The notes under the pieces were generated by a model. The model searched no databases. It was not told where the DNA came from and saw only the letters and a program-made list of their open reading frames with translations. DNA of 26,283 nt from a virus, in the IMG/VR virus record IMGVR_UViG_3300044802_000002, positions 1 through 26,283 of that record, one strand, 5' to 3'. Positions 11,090 to 22,502 of the stretch are shown one piece after another; position 1 is the first letter of the stretch; each line of letters starts with the position of its first letter. Made by a program: the position numbers and the translations under genes.

Positions 11090-13723
11090 ATGCAAAGATC
11101 CACAAGCATACTTACCAACTTTTCGTCTGGCGAGATTTCGCCTAAAATGGCGGCGCGGCTTGACCTTGCACAATATCAAAATTCCTGCCGTACAATTTTA
11201 AACGGAATAGTTATCCCACAAGGTGGAGTTGAAAAACGCCCAGGGGCTTATTACGTCGGAGAAGTAAAAGACAGTACACAACCAACATATTTATTAACTT
11301 TTAAATATTCTGCCGACCAGCAATATATTCTTGAACTAGGCAATCTTTATATACGTTTTTGGTATAATGGCGCGCAAGTAGTGTCGTCTCCTGGAGTCCC
11401 TCTCGAGGTTGTCACTCCTTATCTAACGGCTGAAATCCCAAGTATCAACACTCTCCAGTCTGCCGATGTTCTATACATCGTCCACCCAAATCATCCGCCA
11501 GCTAAACTTTCGAGGACTGCTACCGGGTGGGCCTATGGAGTTATTACATTTCAAGAAGGCGAAGTGCCTGTATCGGATGTTACGGCCGGCAGCACAGGCA
11601 ATGTCCGACTTCGTGTTATCAACCATGGGTTCACGTCAAATAATTTCGTATATGTCAGTGGGGTTGTGGGCGTACCTCAAGCTAACGGGATATTCCAGAT
11701 AAATGTAATTGATGTAGATTCTTTCGATTTGATTGGCAACATCTTGCCGGGAAACCAGATAACAAATGCGGTTACTTATGGCGGCCAAATAAAGATAACA
11801 GCTCCGGGATTTCCCACAACTACTGGAGAAGTTGTTAATATCGGGGGGATTCAAGGGACTATCGAGGCTAATGGCGCATGGGGGATAACCATTGTAGATT
11901 CATCTAATTTTGTCTTAAATGGATCGTCATTCGTAAATGCCTACATTTCAGGCGGGTGGGTTAGCTCGACATCGGCCTATTCTTATGTGAGTGGCGGTGG
12001 GGTAACATTAATCCAGCCTATATCTGGGGCGGCGGCTAACAGTAAAGGAGAAATCAGAATAACCTCTGTTGACCACGGATTTACCACTGGTCAAGGTGTG
12101 TACGTTACTGGAGTAACAGGCACTACTGAAGCCAATGGGACATGGGAAATAACGAAAATAGATGATAACACCTACGATTTGAACGGGTCAGTGTTTGCTC
12201 ATACCTATGTCTCCGGAGGTTTCGGAGTCGCTAAGACATTTGCCACTGCCAATAATTACCCTTCAGTCATTGCTTTTTTTGAACAAAGATTAGTATTTGG
12301 CGGGACTACAAATGAACCTCAGACATTATGGCTTTCGGTGACAGGGGATTTTGAGAACCTTACCCGCGGGACAAACGATGATGATGGGTTGAAATATACT
12401 CTCAATTCCGACGGGGTAGATGCGATCCGATGGTTAACGACATGGAACGTTTTGCTGGTAGGGACTGTTGATGGGGAATGGCGATTCGGCGGAGCTTCAA
12501 TTACAGACCCGCTTACTCCATCTTCCGCATTGGCTAAAATTCAATCGAACAAAGGATCGGCAAATATCAAAGCTCTTTTGATTGGGGACCTGGTTGTGTT
12601 TGTTCAATACTATGGGAAGAAGATTTACCAAATAGGATACAACTTTGTAAGCGATAGTTTCACTTCTGCTGAGCTTACAAAACTTTCAAGCCACATCACA
12701 ACCCCAAATGTAATTTGGGTAGAGAACCAGGAAGCGCCAGAAATTATAGTTTGGATGGGGCGAAGCGATGGCGATCTCGCGAGCATGACTTTCTACACCG
12801 ATGAGAAGATAATTGCCTTTTCAAAACATACTACAGACGGCTTGTTTGAATCCGGGGCTCATGTCCACGGACCCACTGAAGATCAAGTTTGGGTTATTGT
12901 CAATAGAACTATTAATGGAGTGACAAAAAGGTATATTGAATACTTCATGCCCAGGGATTTTTCTACAGGGCAATCGGCATTGAGGCCATTACCGTATTTT
13001 TTTGTGGATAGTGGGCTCGCCTTTGATGGGGGAGATCCAGTAACGATAATCAATGCCACGAAGACTAATCCCGTAGTGATCTCATATGCGGGGAATAACC
13101 CGACAAACGGATGGACAGTCATGTTAGATTCTTTGCAAGGCATGACCGATGTTAACGAAAATGTTTATACTGTTGCCAATGTGGACTCTTCCGCAAAGAC
13201 GTTTGAACTTGCATTGACTGATGGGACTAACTTCAATGCGTATATCAGTGGTGGGACTTGGATAAGGGTTATTAATTCAGTTACAGGAATAGGCCACCTT
13301 GAAGGAAAAACGTGTGACATCTATGCTGACGGCTACGCTCTTGCCCCCCAAGTTGTAGCGTCAGGCAGCTTGCCGTTGGGGGGGTATTATAATCGTGTTT
13401 CGGCTGGGCTCCATTATGATTTTATTATTGAGCCCCAAAGTATTGAGATAAACGCACAGACCGGGACTTCGGCCGGCATGACGAAAAGAATAGAAAAACT
13501 TATGCTTCGGGTGTATAACACAGTAGGGCTTAAAGCCGGGCCGTCCTTAGATAGTTTGGAAGAACTTATATTTGGGGTTCAGTCGGGGCTATTCACCGGA
13601 GATGTTCCCCTTGAGTTCTCTGGGGATTACGACACAAACGCTTACATATCAATCAAACATGATCAGCCATTACCCTGCACGATTTTGGGAATAATAACTT
13701 TTATGTCGGCATACGAGCGATAA
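11090..13723 (+). CDS. Tail tubular protein B-like (T7 gp12-like nozzle) with inserted repeat domains
   Basis: An 877-residue protein starting at ATG 11090. The N-terminus (ILTNFSSGEISPKMAARLDL, then GGVEKRPGAYYVGE) and later segments (EQRLVFGGTTNEPQTLWLS, WLTTWNVLLVGTVDGEWRF) are characteristic of the gp12 nozzle family. Four copies of a beta-domain of about 50-60 residues are inserted at about residues 170-215, 234-288, 322-378 and 662-724. They share a G-V-x-G-(T/V)-x-x-A/V-N-G core and a Y-I/V-S-G-G end, a pattern I know from phage proteins annotated with the E1-FCCH-type domain. These may be surface decorations of the nozzle. Confidence 0.85.
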   Translation: MQRSTSILTNFSSGEISPKMAARLDLAQYQNSCRTILNGIVIPQGGVEKRPGAYYVGEVKDSTQPTYLLTFKYSADQQYILELGNLYIRFWYNGAQVVSSPGVPLEVVTPYLTAEIPSINTLQSADVLYIVHPNHPPAKLSRTATGWAYGVITFQEGEVPVSDVTAGSTGNVRLRVINHGFTSNNFVYVSGVVGVPQANGIFQINVIDVDSFDLIGNILPGNQITNAVTYGGQIKITAPGFPTTTGEVVNIGGIQGTIEANGAWGITIVDSSNFVLNGSSFVNAYISGGWVSSTSAYSYVSGGGVTLIQPISGAAANSKGEIRITSVDHGFTTGQGVYVTGVTGTTEANGTWEITKIDDNTYDLNGSVFAHTYVSGGFGVAKTFATANNYPSVIAFFEQRLVFGGTTNEPQTLWLSVTGDFENLTRGTNDDDGLKYTLNSDGVDAIRWLTTWNVLLVGTVDGEWRFGGASITDPLTPSSALAKIQSNKGSANIKALLIGDLVVFVQYYGKKIYQIGYNFVSDSFTSAELTKLSSHITTPNVIWVENQEAPEIIVWMGRSDGDLASMTFYTDEKIIAFSKHTTDGLFESGAHVHGPTEDQVWVIVNRTINGVTKRYIEYFMPRDFSTGQSALRPLPYFFVDSGLAFDGGDPVTIINATKTNPVVISYAGNNPTNGWTVMLDSLQGMTDVNENVYTVANVDSSAKTFELALTDGTNFNAYISGGTWIRVINSVTGIGHLEGKTCDIYADGYALAPQVVASGSLPLGGYYNRVSAGLHYDFIIEPQSIEINAQTGTSAGMTKRIEKLMLRVYNTVGLKAGPSLDSLEELIFGVQSGLFTGDVPLEFSGDYDTNAYISIKHDQPLPCTILGIITFMSAYER

Positions 13724-13725
13724 AT

Positions 13726-14658
13726 ATGGAATTTAATCCAGACATAGAATTTAGATTATTCGTAAAGCAAGACGCTTACGATATAGTTTACAGGACTGAA
13801 GACGCACACAAAAAAGACAACCCTTATTACGATTCCTGGGCTGAAGAAACAGCGAAAGGGGCCGGATTTACCGGGTTCAGAAAGTCAGACGGGAAAATAC
13901 TAGGATGCGGGGGTATCAAGGTCTTCCGGCCTGGGTGTGGTGAGGCATGGGCGATATACTGCGATGAGATAGGCTTATATGCGAAAGAGTGTCGTGAGTA
14001 TTCTCATTATTATGTAACAAGTCTTATGAAGACGATGGGGCTTCATTGGCTTCAGTGTATCATTGATGCTGACCGCAAACTGAATCTTCGATTTGCCAAG
14101 TCAGTCGGCTTTAGCAATCCTGTCTTATTGAAAGGGTATCGACCGGACGGGACAGATTGTTACATGATGACATACACTCCTGAACCGGATATTAAATCTC
14201 TGACGCTTAACGTCCCATCTGAAGTTTTTTCATTTATGAACCTAAGAGACAAAGTGCAGGTGATTGAAAGTAAGATCATGGAACAACCCGATGCCTTAAT
14301 GGGACATGTGTGGCCGTTGAAGCATTCTTTCGCCAAAGGATTGTATGTTAGGCAAATCAAAGTTCCGGCAGGAGTCCTATTGACAGGGGCTATCCATAAA
14401 TATTCGCATGCGTTCTTTCTTCTAAAGGGAGACATTTCAATTTTGACAGATGGCGGTGTAAAGCGAATAAAAGCTCCCGCCACTTTCATAACTCCCGCAG
14501 GGACGAAGAGGGTTGTCTATCATCATGCCGACACCATAGTAACTACAGTTCACTCGACAGACAAAACCAATGTTGAAGAGATCGAAGAAGAGCTTATTGC
14601 AAAGACATGGGAAGATTATGACTCTCTTCCTCTTCAATTAAGCGGGGTGTCAATATGA
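13726..14658 (+). CDS. GNAT-like (gp13-type) protein fused to a cupin-like domain
   Basis: A 310-residue protein. Residues 1-150 read as a GNAT acyltransferase-like fold, with GFTGFRKSDGKILGCGGIKV, a central strand EAWAIYCDEIGL and a final FAKSVGFSNPVLLKGY, and match the GNAT-type proteins at the gp13 position of T7-like virion modules. Residues 190-300 are a cupin-like beta-barrel: HKYSHAFFLLKGDISILTDG, with His224 and His228 as possible metal ligands, then PAGTKRVVYHHADT and TTVH. Such cupin-like proteins are often separate genes in other phages. Catalysis is unproven; a structural role in the virion core is also possible. It ends in an ATGA overlap with the gp14-like gene. Confidence 0.65.
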   Translation: MEFNPDIEFRLFVKQDAYDIVYRTEDAHKKDNPYYDSWAEETAKGAGFTGFRKSDGKILGCGGIKVFRPGCGEAWAIYCDEIGLYAKECREYSHYYVTSLMKTMGLHWLQCIIDADRKLNLRFAKSVGFSNPVLLKGYRPDGTDCYMMTYTPEPDIKSLTLNVPSEVFSFMNLRDKVQVIESKIMEQPDALMGHVWPLKHSFAKGLYVRQIKVPAGVLLTGAIHKYSHAFFLLKGDISILTDGGVKRIKAPATFITPAGTKRVVYHHADTIVTTVHSTDKTNVEEIEEELIAKTWEDYDSLPLQLSGVSI

Positions 14659-15146
14659 GCTTTGCTATTACCGCCGTTGTAATCACAGTCATATCGACTG
14701 CCGTTTCAATGACGGCACAATATCAACAAGCACAGACTCAACAGAAATGGTCTGATTATAATGCCAAAGTCCAACAGCAACAAGCAAATGAAGTTCTTAG
14801 ACAGTCAGAACAAGAAGCATCAAGAAAGCGGGCCGAAGGGGAACGTTTAATAGCTCGTCAGCATGTCCTTTATGCCAAGGCAGGGCTAGACCTTAGTGGG
14901 ACTCCTGAAGAGTTAATGATAGGAACTGCGGAAGAGGTAGAGCAAGATGCTCAATTAATAATCCACAAAGGCGAGATGGGGTACGATCAAGGCATGGAAT
15001 CTTCCATATTATCAAAAGGTCAAGGCGAAATGGAAGCTAACGCTGGGATGGCAAAAGCAGGAGAGACTCTCCTTTCTGGTCTAGGTAAGGCTTATGGACA
15101 ATACAGTTCTAATTACCAACCGGGGTCGGGCGGTGGCGGGCGGTAG
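14655..15146 (+). CDS. Internal virion protein, T7 gp14-like
   Basis: A 163-residue protein. It starts with a hydrophobic helix (FAITAVVITVISTAVSMTA), followed by a long Gln/Ala/Glu-rich helix (residues 22-75) and the segment ARQHVLYAKAGLDLSGTPEE, a pattern common in gp14-like core proteins that are ejected into the outer membrane during infection. The order gp13-like, gp14-like, gp15-like, gp16-like is as in T7. The frame ends with SGGGGR and a TAG. A +1 slip in the Gly codons would add a Gly/Pro-rich tail ending at TAA 15196-15198, directly against the next start. Confidence 0.72.
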   Translation: MSFAITAVVITVISTAVSMTAQYQQAQTQQKWSDYNAKVQQQQANEVLRQSEQEASRKRAEGERLIARQHVLYAKAGLDLSGTPEELMIGTAEEVEQDAQLIIHKGEMGYDQGMESSILSKGQGEMEANAGMAKAGETLLSGLGKAYGQYSSNYQPGSGGGGR

Positions 15147-15198: not shown

Positions 15199-16923
15199 TT
15201 GCCTATAATCCCTGAATACAGTTCCAACGTAACCCCTTCAGCCGAGACGCCTAATATCTTGGTTAATCCTGCAGCTATGTCTAAGGGCTGGGAAGGGCTT
15301 GAAGATTTGTCACAGGGACTTTCGAGGGCCAATGATGAAGTATCCAGTGGGATAGCCACCATTCAGGACCGACAGGCCAAAATAGCGGCCTATGATGCGG
15401 CTAATAAATACCAACAAGCCATAACTGCCAGGAGCATTAAGGCGAAAGAACTTGAAGGGAACGCAGTCAATGATTACAGTTCTATAACTGGGAAGGATGA
15501 GGATAAGACGACAGACCTCTTCACTGGGGAGAGCAACCAACTCCCAGGAGTCAGGGCGCAATTCCTTGAGAAGTTGGACCCAAAAGCCAGGGAGATATTC
15601 AACCACCTTGCGAACGGAACGGATGATAGTTATAGATCAACATTAGCATCACACCAGGCGACCGAAACCAGAGCTTATAATGCCGCTGTTGTAAAAGATA
15701 CTTTCGAAATTGCTAAACAGAGCATCGTAGAAAACCCAAACGACAAGAATATCGAAGAACAGATAAAGAAGGTAAGAGAAGTCATATCCCTCCACACCGG
15801 CAAGGCTGATAAAGAACTTGCAGATAAGATGGAAGCGGATCTCCGCTCAGCCGGCCGCGCTCGTAAAGTCAGCAACATGGTCACGACCGAGACTGTTGCT
15901 CTTCAAAGGGAGATGAAGATAAAATATCCTGATGACCCCGTTAGAGCTTTAGATGAGGCTTTGACAAAGGCCACTTCTCCGGAATGGCGTGAAGACGCGA
16001 TGAATAGGGGAATAGACGAGACGGCTCAACAAAGGATTGTCTCTCAACTGAACTCATCGCTTATTCAGCAGAATCATTTATACAAGAACAATGTTGATAA
16101 GAAACTTTCGGACTTTCTAGTCCTGCTTGACAACAAAGGTGTTGACCAGAAAGGGAGACCACTATCTTCATGGAAGGATTCAATTGATTCATTTATCTAT
16201 GGCAAGGATTCCGGGCTTAATGGAGAAGACAAGAAGAAGTTCCTCCACATGGCGAATCAGGAAATAGACCGGCAAGTCAAAGAAATCAAATCTGAACAGG
16301 CTGAGATAAGAAGGGACAGACGGGAAGCGGAACATATCCAGGTAGAACGTCACCGCGCAGCGACAGACGACCGTCGAGAGAAAGCAGAACGCGAGAAAGC
16401 GGCGAAAGATAAAAAGAAAGATGAAGTCCTTCAGCGGATTATTTCAGGCGACATAAAAGATCCGATTGACATTGCCCGCACTCCTGGGATGGACGTTGAC
16501 ACTATGAAGTCCCTGGGCCCGGTATTGAAGGAAGTCAGTTCGTCAATTTATATCAAAGACGCATATAAAACAGTTGATGTTTTTGTAAAGACCCATGAAA
16601 GCGATCCGCTCAAGCAGAAACAACTTTTAAGCGAGATGCATGATAAGTTACACGCGAGCCTCGCAGGGAAATCAGATCCCGCAGAGATCAAGAAAATAGT
16701 CGACGACATGATGACGGAAAAGACTTCTGCCCGGTTTAAGGATATTCTTGAGGTGGTAGGCAACTTCTTTAACCCGAAACCAGAGGCAAAAGCGGAGCAG
16801 CCGAAAACACAACCGAAGCAATTCACTGAATCATCCCTACGTGCTGACCTTGCTTCACATGGGATAAAAGGCCAGGCGGCTGACGATTATATCAAAAAGG
16901 CAAAAGCGGCTGGAAAACTTTAA
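15199..16923 (+). CDS. Internal virion protein, T7 gp15-like position
   Basis: A 574-residue protein starting at TTG 15199, with GGGAGG five bases upstream and an in-frame TAA immediately before. It is almost entirely helical and charged. It has a Gln/Ala-rich region (residues 48-100), a segment around SSITGKDEDKTTDLFTGE, a highly charged coiled coil near residues 355-410 (RRDRREAEHIQVERHR) and a C-terminal Pro/Lys/Gln linker. Length, helical content and position between the gp14-like and giant genes fit the gp15 component of the ejected core. I did not recognise a specific domain. It overlaps the next gene as TAATG. Confidence 0.65.
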   Translation: MPIIPEYSSNVTPSAETPNILVNPAAMSKGWEGLEDLSQGLSRANDEVSSGIATIQDRQAKIAAYDAANKYQQAITARSIKAKELEGNAVNDYSSITGKDEDKTTDLFTGESNQLPGVRAQFLEKLDPKAREIFNHLANGTDDSYRSTLASHQATETRAYNAAVVKDTFEIAKQSIVENPNDKNIEEQIKKVREVISLHTGKADKELADKMEADLRSAGRARKVSNMVTTETVALQREMKIKYPDDPVRALDEALTKATSPEWREDAMNRGIDETAQQRIVSQLNSSLIQQNHLYKNNVDKKLSDFLVLLDNKGVDQKGRPLSSWKDSIDSFIYGKDSGLNGEDKKKFLHMANQEIDRQVKEIKSEQAEIRRDRREAEHIQVERHRAATDDRREKAEREKAAKDKKKDEVLQRIISGDIKDPIDIARTPGMDVDTMKSLGPVLKEVSSSIYIKDAYKTVDVFVKTHESDPLKQKQLLSEMHDKLHASLAGKSDPAEIKKIVDDMMTEKTSARFKDILEVVGNFFNPKPEAKAEQPKTQPKQFTESSLRADLASHGIKGQAADDYIKKAKAAGKL

Positions 16924-19900
16924 TGCCATACGACCCCTTAAATATCGGCACAACTGAAAACACTCCGCCGCCGGCTGTTGTCGCAGGATATGACCCGCTC
17001 GGAATTAACACTCCGGAACCTACCACTCCCCTCGCCTCACACGACTCCCCTACCCCTGACCTTTCATGGCGACAAGGCAAGCCGAAAGGCCCAATAGACA
17101 AACTAAAGGACTTCATAGGGCTTTCAGACAACAAGCCCCACGACTCAGCGAAAGCGGCCAATGCCTTGACCTACTCTGAAATGTTGGGGGTCTCTCCTTC
17201 GATCGCTTATGACAATCATGATGAGATTTCAAAGCGGATGAGAGAAGCGGCTCCGGGCGAAAAGATCGACACGCGGACAAGAGGGGGAGTTGGCAAGGCA
17301 GTAAAGGCTGGAGCGAAGTCTTCTCTTGTCGGGATGATGGCAAATCAGAAAGCTCCTGAACCTTTTGAGTCTCTAAATCAGTTCGAACGATGGGCGGAGA
17401 TGGGAACTCAAATGGCTCTTGACCTCCCTGCATTCCTCGCGGGGGATGTCGTTGGAGGTCCGGCTGGAGGGTTCGGGTTCACTGCGGGGATGAGGCAACT
17501 TCTCACTGAGACATATCAGAAAGGAAAGATCAAGACCCCTCAGGAGTTTTTCGACCGCACGATTAACGCTGTCAAACAGACAGTAGGGGGCGAGATTGTA
17601 GGTGCGGCGTTTGGCGTGGCTGGTAAAGTTCCAGGGCCGGGATATGTTAAGGCTGCTTCCGAACTTGCGGCCATGACCACCATGAGCAAGGTTATTCAAG
17701 GGGAACTTCCTACCGCTCAAGACTTCATCGACAATGCGGTTGTGTTTGCAGTCATATCCGGGGGGGTGAAAGGTAAAGACTACATTCTCCCCAAACTCCA
17801 CAAGATGTATTCAAAATACGGACTTCACCCTGACGAAGTGGCGGAAGAGATTAAATCTCGGATACCTGGAGGGAAAGAGAACCCTTCACCCGAAGAAGTG
17901 AAAGCGGCATTGCGCGACATTGAAACCGACTTACAAGAAAAGACCGCGCTGAAACCGGCAATTAAGAAAGCTGATGGGGAAGTTATAAAGGGGAAGCTCG
18001 GCCAGACACACGAAGATATTCTCCGTAACGAGCCGGGGATTGTTTTTGATGAAGCGGCAGACGAGAAAGTCTTCACCAAGGGAGAAGATGACAAGACACT
18101 TACCCGCGAAGAAGCCAAAGAGGATTTAAAGACTTCTGACCCGGAAACTTATCAGAACTGGATTGCGTTAAACGGTAAGGGTGAAGATGGAGAACTGCAT
18201 AGCCAAGACTACATGGCCGCTTCAGAGATTACCCCTGTACCGTCAGAAACCGCAAAAGCCATTTCCATGACTCCTGAAGAATATGCACTTGATGTTTTTG
18301 GCAGGCCACTGGCACAGATAAAAGAAATTGTCGGTCCTGAAGCTGGCGATCAGGTCATGGAAGCTCACCGGCTTGCAGTTGAATCGGCACATGCTGCAGG
18401 GCAAGATGTCCCCGCCAAGGTACTCGAAGCCTATGGATTAAAAAAGGGGGGTGAAGTCGCTGATACGAAACCGGGAGAAGGAAGCGCGCAAGAAACCCAA
18501 GAAGGTACTCTCTACGAAAAAACCCTAGCAGGCGACCAGGGCAAGCTTTTTGCCACCCCTCCCACATTCGGCAAACATCCAAAAACAGGTGAGCCTTTAA
18601 CCACGGCTGACTTTATCGACAACTTCACTCCCGATCCGCAACAAGACCTATTCGGAAAGCCCGAACGGTTCTCAGTGTTCCAAAAATCCGAAGCGCCGAA
18701 GTCTCGAACTATTGGCGATGTAATAAAGGATATGAGGGATGCCATAGGCGAAAGGGGGGCCATTGGAGATCAGGAAGCGACCGATAAACAGAAAGCCGCA
18801 AGGGAAAGACTTCGTAAAGATGTTGAGGCACTTAAAGCGAACGCTACTAAGGCCGGTAAAGAACTTGGTGAATATCTTAAAGACCTTGGATACGATGACC
18901 CGACTATAGAACGAATAATGGCGTTTGCCGGGGCTACAGGAGGTCCACAAGCCCCTGAAGATAAAGAGGCGGAACCTATCTTTAACGAAACGGCAGGGCC
19001 GGCAGTAAGCCCTGTAACCGAAGCCAACGCGCCTGACCATATCGGTAGGGCATGGAACAAGATCAAAAACTTATGGATAGGAGAAAAAGATGTCGCGAAG
19101 AGTCAATCAGAAATTGAAGCGAGACTTCTAAAAAGAGACTTGATTGACGCGATGGGAGATAATCCCTTCACATTTTTAAAGACCATTGCCCCAGGTTATG
19201 CAGATGCTAGGGCTTACATAAAAGACCTGAACAAAGCAATCCAGATTTACATCGACACGAAGCGCGACTCTTCCGCGATAGAAAGGACTGAAGGTGCATT
19301 GACTGAAGAGCAGAAGAGAATCCTTGACCTTTCTCAAAACCTTCCTAAAGAAATAATGCCGGTTGTAGAGAGGATTCAAAAGGCTTATGCCGATATTGCC
19401 AAGACTCAATATGACTCAGGGATGGTAAAGAACTTCATCGAGAACTTTGTCAACCGTGTTTGGAACCTTGATGATAAGGGTAGACCGTCTGATGATACTC
19501 GCGCGAAGTTTGGGTTAAAGACCCGTCACGCCAAAGAGAGGCAGTTCGAAACTATCCTTGACGGGTGGGCGGCAGGGTATGATTTGAAGGTAGAGGGGGC
19601 GATAGATGCTCTCAAAGTTATGCGCGAAGAGATTTCCAAGGTAGTTGCCAACAAGGAACTTATTGAAGCGGCAACCAGGGCCAGAGACATAGAAGGCCGT
19701 CCGATAATGGCAACGCCTCAGACCTTGGCTGCGGCACTCAGGAAGGCAAAGGAAGCGGTCAGAATCAGGAAAGAACGCGAAGAGTCCGGAGAGATAGCAC
19801 ATGATGCAAAAGCGGCGGCAAAGGAAGCAAAACTTGTTGCCGATCTTGAAAAGGGATACAGGAAAGTTCCGGTAAGCGGATTCAAACATTGGGAATGGGC

Positions 19901-22502
19901 GGGGAAGATCGAAGCGGCCACGACCGAAAGAATAACCCAAACTCGTAATGTCTTGAGTGAAACAATAAGCGTGTTAACGAGTAAAGGCAAAACCCCGTCT
20001 TCAAAAGTTGAAGCCAAAGTTAGAGAAGCCTTGACCGCTAGGGGATGGTCTGAAGGTGAAGCAAACCAGATGATCGAGCGGGTAAAGAACGCTGAACCTG
20101 GCGAGAAACAAAACACAATAATAGAAAGGACGATTGAGAAGACAATCACGCGAGAGATTGCCACGGAAGTTAATGTCAAGCAGTACGGGAAAGATTTCTT
20201 TATTAAGGACGCGAACATATACGAAAACCGGGATTTGTACGCTAGGGAAGACATAGCAAAGAACCTTGACCATATGCTGAGTAAGGTTCATCCTCCCGAC
20301 TGGGCCGACAAGATAGCAAAGTACAATGCCATATCAAAGGGGTGGGTGCTTGCGTCTGGTTTTTTTCACAACATCGCGGGTATGTATAATTACTACCTTG
20401 GAACCGGCAAAGTCTGGAAAGACATGAGTATCCGCAAGGCTTACAAAGAAGGGATGAAGCAATTAGAAGAACGCAATCCCGTTTTGATGGAAGGTATAAA
20501 GAATGGGCTTACTATAGGGGCGCGGCAGGATTGGCAAGAGCATTACTTGCAGGAAAAGACATGGTTTGGCAAGCAGGTAGACAAACTCGGATTTATCGGA
20601 GAGGTAAAGGACAAGCTCGTTGAATTGCGCGAACTACAATCAAGTTTCCTTTTTGAAGAGTTCTTCTCCGGGCTGAAGGCGATGCAGTATCTTGATGAGT
20701 ACAAAGGGATACTTGAACGGCACGAAGGCATTGACCCGGACAAGGCAGCACACCAAGCAGCAGCAGTAACCAACGCGAATTATGGGGGGCTGAAGTTAGA
20801 GCAACTTGGTAAGTGGAACCCCACACATGAATTCAGGATGGGAAGAGACCCGCGCAGCCAGTTTGTATTTCATTTACTTGCACTAGCTCCAGACTGGTGC
20901 ATTTTGCCTGATACTCGCGCTATGACAAAAAACGGATGGAAATATTACCATGAATTGACCGTTGGGCTGGATGAGATATTAGCCTTCAACCCCGTCACCA
21001 ATAAATATCAATGGTCTGTTCTTAACGATATGTACGTCAACAAAGAATATAAAGGCAAAATGGTTTTTGTTAAAAACCACAACAGGCTTATTGGTACAAC
21101 ACCTCACCACAAAAACTTTGTGTGGAATATATCTAAGAAGAAGTTTGAAGTAGTCTTATCAGAAAACCTTAACTCGGCGCACAGGATACCCCGGAGCGCA
21201 GGTTTTGATTTTCCTAGTGAAGAAGAATATACAGATTATTTTGTCAAGATTGTTGGATGGTTTGTGACTGATGGATACATTAAGTCATGTTTCCAAACTC
21301 GGTCAACAGGTGAATATGCTGTATATCGTTATGGCAAAATCACTCAGTCAAAGCCAAACACAGTAGAGATTTTGAAGAATATGGGGATGCTGTACCATGT
21401 TGAAAAAACAAATTGCGATCATGACAAATTCAAAGCCAATTATCCGAAACATATCTTTACCATTCCCAAAGCCATATTTGAACAGATTGAGAATGATCAC
21501 ATAACTAGAGGGGGATTGAACTGGGACTTCCTTAGCAAACTCACAAAAAGACAGCTTGAATTGCTTTACGATACCATGATGTTAGGCGATGGGACAGGGC
21601 AAAACAGATTTTGTGGACAAGAGAAGGCCGTCTTTTACATGACAATGATTCAAACGATGTTAGGCAAACCGAGCACGTTTTATCAGCAAGAAGATAATTG
21701 TTGGAGAACTAGAGTTTTACAAGACTCCAAAAAGTTTATTACTTGCAGTGGGACTATTTCCAAAGAAGATTATGAAGGCGCTATCTGGTGTCCCTCAGTT
21801 GATACAGGTTTTTGGCTTGCCGAACGTGAAGGGCTGATGTTTATAACGGGGAATACCGAAAGTAATATCCAACTTGTCGGCAATGCTTTGAAGGGCGTAG
21901 CAACTGGGAGTCCTCAAGAATTAGAAGTCTATCAACGTCTTGTTGCGAAGTGGGCTATCCGTGGGACCGGGGCGTTGGTAATTGGGAACTTCGTCCTTGC
22001 CGGCGGTGATCTGGACAAGATGATTGATAATTTCGAACGGTCATGGAAGGAAGGAAACCTGAATTGGATGAGATGGGATATCACCCCTATCTTCCGGATG
22101 TTCGGGGGAGACCAATCAAAACACAAATACATTTCAGCCTTTGGGCATATGGAAGACCCTGTTAAGTCCGTACTCCACACAGGCCAGTTTTTGAAAAACA
22201 AATCTTCCATTATAGGCAAAACACTACTTGACGGGATTACTGGCAGAGATTGGCAGGGCAAGGCGTTCACGGAGTTTGGAGACCTATGGCAAACAGGCAA
22301 GGCGGTAAAGTGGAGCGCCACAGCACACCCAATAGACTTCTCAACCTTTCCGGCTTATGCTATAACTGAAATCATCGGTACAGAACCGATACAGTTACAG
22401 AATTTACTTGGATGGACAATGGGCCAAGAAGATGCCTTTGATATGGTCCTGAAGTCCACAGGGCTGAGAGAAAATACAGCGAATCCGAAGAAAGTGAAAT
22501 AA
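16923..22502 (+). CDS. Giant internal virion (gp16-position) protein containing an intein
   Basis: An 1859-residue precursor, about 1540 residues after removal of the 319-residue intein (residues 1326-1644). The N-terminus is Pro-rich, followed by Gly/Ala-rich amphipathic segments at about residues 160-280, suitable for membrane interaction. Long charged helical regions fill the middle (300-1200). The C-terminal part, around NANYGGLKLEQLGKWNP, FVFHLLALAPDW/TESN and WAIRGTGALVIGNFVLAGGD, resembles the LPD38-type domain of large polyvalent phage proteins as I remember it. No lytic transglycosylase or protease motif was recognised. By position and size it corresponds to T7 gp16, which is ejected into the cell envelope to help DNA entry. 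The gene ends in TAATG with the next. Confidence 0.72.
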   Translation: MPYDPLNIGTTENTPPPAVVAGYDPLGINTPEPTTPLASHDSPTPDLSWRQGKPKGPIDKLKDFIGLSDNKPHDSAKAANALTYSEMLGVSPSIAYDNHDEISKRMREAAPGEKIDTRTRGGVGKAVKAGAKSSLVGMMANQKAPEPFESLNQFERWAEMGTQMALDLPAFLAGDVVGGPAGGFGFTAGMRQLLTETYQKGKIKTPQEFFDRTINAVKQTVGGEIVGAAFGVAGKVPGPGYVKAASELAAMTTMSKVIQGELPTAQDFIDNAVVFAVISGGVKGKDYILPKLHKMYSKYGLHPDEVAEEIKSRIPGGKENPSPEEVKAALRDIETDLQEKTALKPAIKKADGEVIKGKLGQTHEDILRNEPGIVFDEAADEKVFTKGEDDKTLTREEAKEDLKTSDPETYQNWIALNGKGEDGELHSQDYMAASEITPVPSETAKAISMTPEEYALDVFGRPLAQIKEIVGPEAGDQVMEAHRLAVESAHAAGQDVPAKVLEAYGLKKGGEVADTKPGEGSAQETQEGTLYEKTLAGDQGKLFATPPTFGKHPKTGEPLTTADFIDNFTPDPQQDLFGKPERFSVFQKSEAPKSRTIGDVIKDMRDAIGERGAIGDQEATDKQKAARERLRKDVEALKANATKAGKELGEYLKDLGYDDPTIERIMAFAGATGGPQAPEDKEAEPIFNETAGPAVSPVTEANAPDHIGRAWNKIKNLWIGEKDVAKSQSEIEARLLKRDLIDAMGDNPFTFLKTIAPGYADARAYIKDLNKAIQIYIDTKRDSSAIERTEGALTEEQKRILDLSQNLPKEIMPVVERIQKAYADIAKTQYDSGMVKNFIENFVNRVWNLDDKGRPSDDTRAKFGLKTRHAKERQFETILDGWAAGYDLKVEGAIDALKVMREEISKVVANKELIEAATRARDIEGRPIMATPQTLAAALRKAKEAVRIRKEREESGEIAHDAKAAAKEAKLVADLEKGYRKVPVSGFKHWEWAGKIEAATTERITQTRNVLSETISVLTSKGKTPSSKVEAKVREALTARGWSEGEANQMIERVKNAEPGEKQNTIIERTIEKTITREIATEVNVKQYGKDFFIKDANIYENRDLYAREDIAKNLDHMLSKVHPPDWADKIAKYNAISKGWVLASGFFHNIAGMYNYYLGTGKVWKDMSIRKAYKEGMKQLEERNPVLMEGIKNGLTIGARQDWQEHYLQEKTWFGKQVDKLGFIGEVKDKLVELRELQSSFLFEEFFSGLKAMQYLDEYKGILERHEGIDPDKAAHQAAAVTNANYGGLKLEQLGKWNPTHEFRMGRDPRSQFVFHLLALAPDWCILPDTRAMTKNGWKYYHELTVGLDEILAFNPVTNKYQWSVLNDMYVNKEYKGKMVFVKNHNRLIGTTPHHKNFVWNISKKKFEVVLSENLNSAHRIPRSAGFDFPSEEEYTDYFVKIVGWFVTDGYIKSCFQTRSTGEYAVYRYGKITQSKPNTVEILKNMGMLYHVEKTNCDHDKFKANYPKHIFTIPKAIFEQIENDHITRGGLNWDFLSKLTKRQLELLYDTMMLGDGTGQNRFCGQEKAVFYMTMIQTMLGKPSTFYQQEDNCWRTRVLQDSKKFITCSGTISKEDYEGAIWCPSVDTGFWLAEREGLMFITGNTESNIQLVGNALKGVATGSPQELEVYQRLVAKWAIRGTGALVIGNFVLAGGDLDKMIDNFERSWKEGNLNWMRWDITPIFRMFGGDQSKHKYISAFGHMEDPVKSVLHTGQFLKNKSSIIGKTLLDGITGRDWQGKAFTEFGDLWQTGKAVKWSATAHPIDFSTFPAYAITEIIGTEPIQLQNLLGWTMGQEDAFDMVLKSTGLRENTANPKKVK
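20898..21854 (+). mobile_element. Intein with LAGLIDADG homing endonuclease
   Basis: A 319-residue in-frame insertion. Block A: Cys1 in CILPDTRAMTKNGWKYYHEL. Block B: GTTPHH, the T-x-x-H motif with His70. Two LAGLIDADG-like helices with their acidic residues: IVGWFVTDGYI (nt about 21249-21281) and LLYDTMMLGDGTG (about 21561-21599), suggesting an intact endonuclease. Block F: WCPSVDTGFWLAEREG. Block G: ITGN ending in Asn319. The flanking residues are Trp before and Thr after, so Thr would be the second nucleophile. The penultimate residue is Gly instead of the usual His; TGN endings occur in other phage inteins as I recall. Joined exteins read LLALAPDW-TESNIQLVGN. Confidence 0.92.

Follow-up and report, generated by a model that had tools for sequence, protein, structure and literature searches.

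Inteins of phage portal proteins are already known (PMC5050341), so phage structural proteins can host these elements. Portal inteins of the Gordonia phage Woes (KU998240) and of GX15bay (Caudovirales, MK557849) align over the full length of the intein that we describe here, from an uncultivated virus fragment of 26,283 bases belonging to a T7-like phage (hereafter the window, meaning the whole stretch). They share its invariant residues, including the penultimate Gly and the Asn, and reside, as it probably does, in a virion structural protein, but they are only about 28% identical to it, occupy another protein and site, and carry Trp at position B:12. The large terminase inteins of Gordonia phages GordTnk2 and GMA3 likewise align over the full length and have the splice residues found in the window; they differ in identity (27-28%), in their host, which is a packaging ATPase, and in Trp B:12. 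The gp289 intein of Synechococcus phage B23 (MN695335) gives the best match (E 8e-21) and, like the window intein, is without Trp B:12, whereas its host is a gp55-like protein and its identity to the window intein is 30-32%. Finally, the mycobacteriophage RDF intein (Bethlehem gp51), which splices, resembles the window intein in its penultimate Gly, as judged from its description rather than from an alignment, and differs in host protein (PMC5050341). Another protein that hosts an intein of this group is gp135 of Mycobacterium phage Pinkcreek (L006:2033-4411), a hypothetical protein that is perhaps structural and whose gene is flanked by a baseplate J gene and a minor tail gene.

Relative to these systems, the element is of a known kind, and the window intein represents a new allele group within it. 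Its host protein family and insertion site appear not to have been described before, and our literature search found no report of an intein in either. The original prediction had called an intein in a structural protein uncommon; the portal inteins show that such a host is not without precedent. The host open reading frame (16923-22502) codes for 1,859 aa with the intein included, and the intein occupies codons 1,326-1,644, with the frame open throughout its 319 codons. The features are as follows, with a slash marking a splice junction:

16923..20897, + strand: N-extein, the 1,325 N-terminal aa of the gp16-position protein up to ...LLALAPDW (open reading frame; uninterrupted homologues cross the junction)
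20898..21854, + strand: intein, 319 aa, Cys1 to Asn319 (full-length tblastn to phage inteins, alignment, G+C)
20898..20939, + strand: splicing block A, CILPDTRAMTKNGW, with the Cys1 nucleophile (C1, T6, G13 invariant in 10/10)
21099..21116, + strand: block B, TPHHKN, with T68 (B:7), H71 (B:10) and N73 (B:12) (H71 invariant in 10/10)
21219..21752, + strand: LAGLIDADG homing endonuclease domain, limits approximate (model against I-DmoI and intein endonucleases, residues ~108-268)
21243..21281, + strand: LAGLIDADG motif 1, VKIVGWFVTDGYI, catalytic-position D125 (D or E in 10/10 aligned inteins)
21555..21599, + strand: LAGLIDADG motif 2, LELLYDTMMLGDGTG, catalytic-position D231 (D in 9/10; C in L001 only)
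21777..21827, + strand: block F, GAIWCPSVDTGFWLAER, with C298 (F:4) and L307 at F:13 (WCP invariant in 10/10)
21831..21857, + strand: block G, GLMFITGN/T, with T317, G318, N319 and the +1 Thr (T, G, N invariant in 10/10)
21855..22502, + strand: C-extein, TESNIQ... to the stop, 215 aa (contiguous with the N-extein in uninterrupted homologues)

The Cys1 codon starts at 20898, Asn319 ends at 21854, and the TESN of the C-extein resumes at 21855 in an unchanged frame; the region of blocks F and G reads ...IWCPS...REGLMFITGN/T, with F:4 numbered after PMC4031507. The predicted coordinates, 20898-21854 between LLALAPDW and TESN, were therefore exact, and blocks A, B, F and G and both LAGLIDADG helices were all recovered. 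Base composition also sets the element apart, with 39.0% G+C in the intein vs 48.7% in the remaining gene.

Homology and fold identify the 319 residues. By tblastn against 50,697 phage records, the 319-aa sequence matched 209 records at E<=1, 125 of them with at least 80% coverage; these include one record annotated 'contains intein' and end-to-end matches (1-319) to inteins of TerL, portal and gp55-like phage proteins, with a best E of 8e-21. The intein alone returned nothing useful in single-sequence searches of Pfam, NCBIfam and PDB, so sensitivity had to be drawn from its relatives: a profile of the ten-intein alignment retrieves Hint-fold inteins from the PDB (best E 1.7e-5). AlphaFold2 models built with four and six relatives have a pLDDT of 61-62, a moderate confidence that is low for residues 258-319, which hold blocks F and G. 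PI-PfuI is the top Foldseek match of the model (E 1.8e-5), and structural alignment gives Z 12.5 over residues 1-311 for the TliVMA intein, a full-length intein with endonuclease, about 10 for PI-SceI and about 9 for I-DmoI. The expected Hint and LAGLIDADG similarity was thus found by both profile and fold comparison. Together with this Hint similarity, the locus has homologues without the insertion, a terminal Asn319 and the nucleophile Thr+1. At a probability of roughly 0.93, we read the 319 codons as a full-length bifunctional intein, comprising a Hint splicing domain and a two-motif LAGLIDADG endonuclease, that likely splices by the class 1 route. The view of the stretch as an ordinary host-protein domain draws only on the fact that Pfam and NCBIfam, when searched with the single sequence, gave it no name; this reading is refuted by the uninterrupted homologues and contradicted by inteins with the same ends in unrelated proteins and by the Hint and LAGLIDADG similarity, and we give it practically no weight.

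Those uninterrupted homologues are numerous. The DNA pattern for LAPDWTESN matches 72 viral contigs and is encoded in an open reading frame in 71, and 69 of these 71 align to the window extein across the junction (blastp), at up to 40-45% identity. One match to the pattern ITGNTESN, in L082, was rejected as chance in an unrelated protein. Because this first set was chosen by the motif itself, which biases any estimate of its conservation, it was replaced by a site-blind search with an alignment-built profile that ends before the insertion site. The site-blind set holds 68 loci (61 uninterrupted, five with an intein and two doubtful), and the uninterrupted loci read LAPDWTESN (56), L[AG][AS]DWTESN (3) or LAPDWTFSN (2). 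Alignment to these insertion-free relatives is continuous through the motif. In the site-blind set, no other 9-mer of the 400-residue C-terminal module is as conserved as LAPDWTESN (0.98 vs a mean of 0.51), which bears out the predicted position of the junction in the best-conserved stretch of the C-terminal domain, and the intein splits the motif as LAPDW/TESN.

Ten aligned inteins have C1, T6, G13, H71, W297, C298, P299, T317, G318 and N319 as invariant residues. The window intein keeps every splice residue that the group shares, and a search for the loss of essential ones found none lost relative to known phage inteins. Histidines at G:6 and F:13 usually assist Asn cyclization in inteins; block F of the window intein has Leu rather than His at F:13 (L307), so both are missing, as they are in the whole group. 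The penultimate Gly and the +1 Thr, in contrast to the earlier view of them as non-standard, are neither of them anomalous: the Gly is common to all ten aligned inteins, and a mycobacteriophage intein with this residue splices, more slowly once it is changed to His (PMC5050341), while Thr is one of three standard +1 nucleophiles (PMC4031507, PMC7664689).

The class 1 signature, C1 with T68 (B:7) and H71 (B:10), is present in the window intein. Class 3 was defined by Kelley et al. by a Trp-Cys-Thr triplet (PMC5050341); here Cys F:4 and Thr G:5 are present, but B:12 is Asn, and the Cys1 nucleophile is in place. With two of the three signature residues, splicing might nonetheless start at C298 of block F and leave Cys1 dispensable, and five phage relatives (L003, L004, L005, L006 and L007, in terminase, portal and one tail-region protein) combine the full triplet, with Trp at B:12, and Cys1. 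Where Ser1 or Cys1 accompanies the triplet, some inteins may splice via the class 3 route. However, tested class 3 inteins require the Trp at B:12 (PMC5222942), none of the ten aligned inteins lacks Cys1, and Cys is the second commonest residue at F:4 in inteins generally (PMC4031507). We regard a class 3-like start as unlikely and retain the class 1 assignment. Less plausible still, the alleles at PDW/T could be intermediates between the splicing classes, descended from ancestors with both Cys1 and the triplet, in which the Trp was lost and Cys1, Cys F:4 and Thr G:5 were kept, either cysteine may start the reaction, and splicing would gate the maturation of a virion effector; we offer this as a quite improbable speculation.

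The same intein family occurs at the same site in six further contigs. L001, L085, L089 and L081/L096 carry it there, a remote homologue (L093, profile E 8e-8) has it at PDW/T, and the copy in L095 is truncated and out of frame. In the latter (L095:4001-4857), the C-terminal part of the intein and the following TES are absent, a frameshift leads to a stop, and the downstream extein lies in another frame; the copy has decayed naturally or else was misassembled. The endonuclease of the window intein, as predicted, is intact-looking: both motif acids, D125 and D231, are kept, and the two acidic motifs accompany a fold that matches PI-PfuI and I-DmoI. In L001 (6001-6957) the second motif is GCG, not GDG, and this Cys at 231 has probably left the endonuclease dead. 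The truncation in L095 and the lost acid in L001 indicate that decay occurs in the family, and the window copy might similarly have decayed and lost the ability to splice, its protein being made as a precursor or as two cleaved pieces. We consider this very improbable, since all group-shared splice residues are intact and the frame is open in the window, and, with the site so conserved, damage to the host protein would be expected from a broken copy.

The distribution of the intein conflicts with the extein tree, which was built from six carriers, the window among them, and 61 others. No fewer than five changes of the trait must be placed on well-supported branches, a single carrier clade is rejected (p-AU 0.00026), and the intein-less L097, L102 and L105 group with the window extein, which is itself a long branch. 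Between the window and other carriers, identity is 53-61% for the inteins and 27-42% for the exteins. L001 has the same G+C contrast, 40.9% in the intein vs 51.9% in the rest of the gene. Because the carrier exteins form no clade and the inteins are more alike than the exteins, horizontal movement of the element fits these sequence comparisons best, and we infer homing as the obvious route. The insertion site appears to have been used repeatedly by unrelated phages. The only close pair of inteins differs by two changes, too few to measure selection.

Gene order provides the context for the host protein. The window is arranged as in T7, with terminase, portal (phrog_332), capsid (phrog_212) and tail tubular proteins A and B (phrog_394, phrog_376), then a gp14-like internal virion protein (phrog_418, 14655-15146), a 574-aa protein (15199) and the intein host at 16923, with a tail fiber (phrog_1640) beyond it. 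From this order, the host protein is probably the gp16-position internal virion protein and probably carried in the particle. The original prediction of a giant internal virion protein at that position is supported by gene order and not by sequence similarity: neither the host protein nor its C-terminal module has a significant match in Pfam, PHROG or PDB, and the extein has no match in the 50,697 phage records. Matches of the large protein to RecX, RuvA and RmuC fell below curated cut-offs and were dismissed as chance, and Pfam LPD38 found no support as an identity for the C-terminal module, none of six members matching it. Searches of the other contigs with phrog_376 and phrog_332 gave matches too patchy for shared gene order. 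Elsewhere in the window, the tail tubular B-like protein (11090-13723) matches Pfam E1_FCCH in two stretches (PF16190, E 4.9e-17).

Several homologues of the host protein are polyvalent-type fusions. Domains described in polyvalent proteins (PMC5512222) recur among them, namely ART-PolyVal, PRTase and 2H phosphoesterase in the L001 homologue and a single enzymatic domain in L027 (SNF2 helicase) and L019 (ART-PolyVal). For polyvalent proteins, entry into the host along with the phage DNA has been proposed (PMC5512222). Unlike that class, the window protein has no such enzymatic domain in a Pfam search, and the C-terminal module that it shares matches no Pfam family. This module of ~400 residues, with near-invariant NDDFGGLHL and LAPDWTESN motifs, occurs in giant proteins of many uncultured phages and in a few MAG contigs (Halanaerobiales, KSB1, Nitrospirae). 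Just before the intein, at ~20775-20850, the window extein has ~11 additional residues (GGLKLEQLGKWNPTHEFRMGR vs GGLHLxRMGR).

Under the class 1 route, Cys1 would attack the Trp-Cys1 bond, the acyl group would pass to Thr+1, cyclization of Asn319 would free the intein, and a last acyl shift would link LAPDW to TESN in a 1,540-aa protein. The predicted ligated junction is ...LALAPDWTESNIQ..., and LLALAPDWTESNIQ is the expected spliced-product peptide. Splicing is probably needed for the host protein, because the insertion hits the most conserved stretch of its C-terminal module. During co-infection, the probable target of the endonuclease is the LAPDW/TESN DNA site in copies without the intein, and cutting there would spread the element by homing among related phages.

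In summary, the window adds one insertion site and one host protein family to phage inteins, and the wider phage intein group to which it belongs mixes class 1 and class 3 residues. It also points to a widespread C-terminal module of phage giant proteins in which LAPDWTESN is near-invariant. With uninterrupted copies, several carriers, an endonuclease-site mutant and a truncated copy, intein invasion and decay can be traced at a single site.
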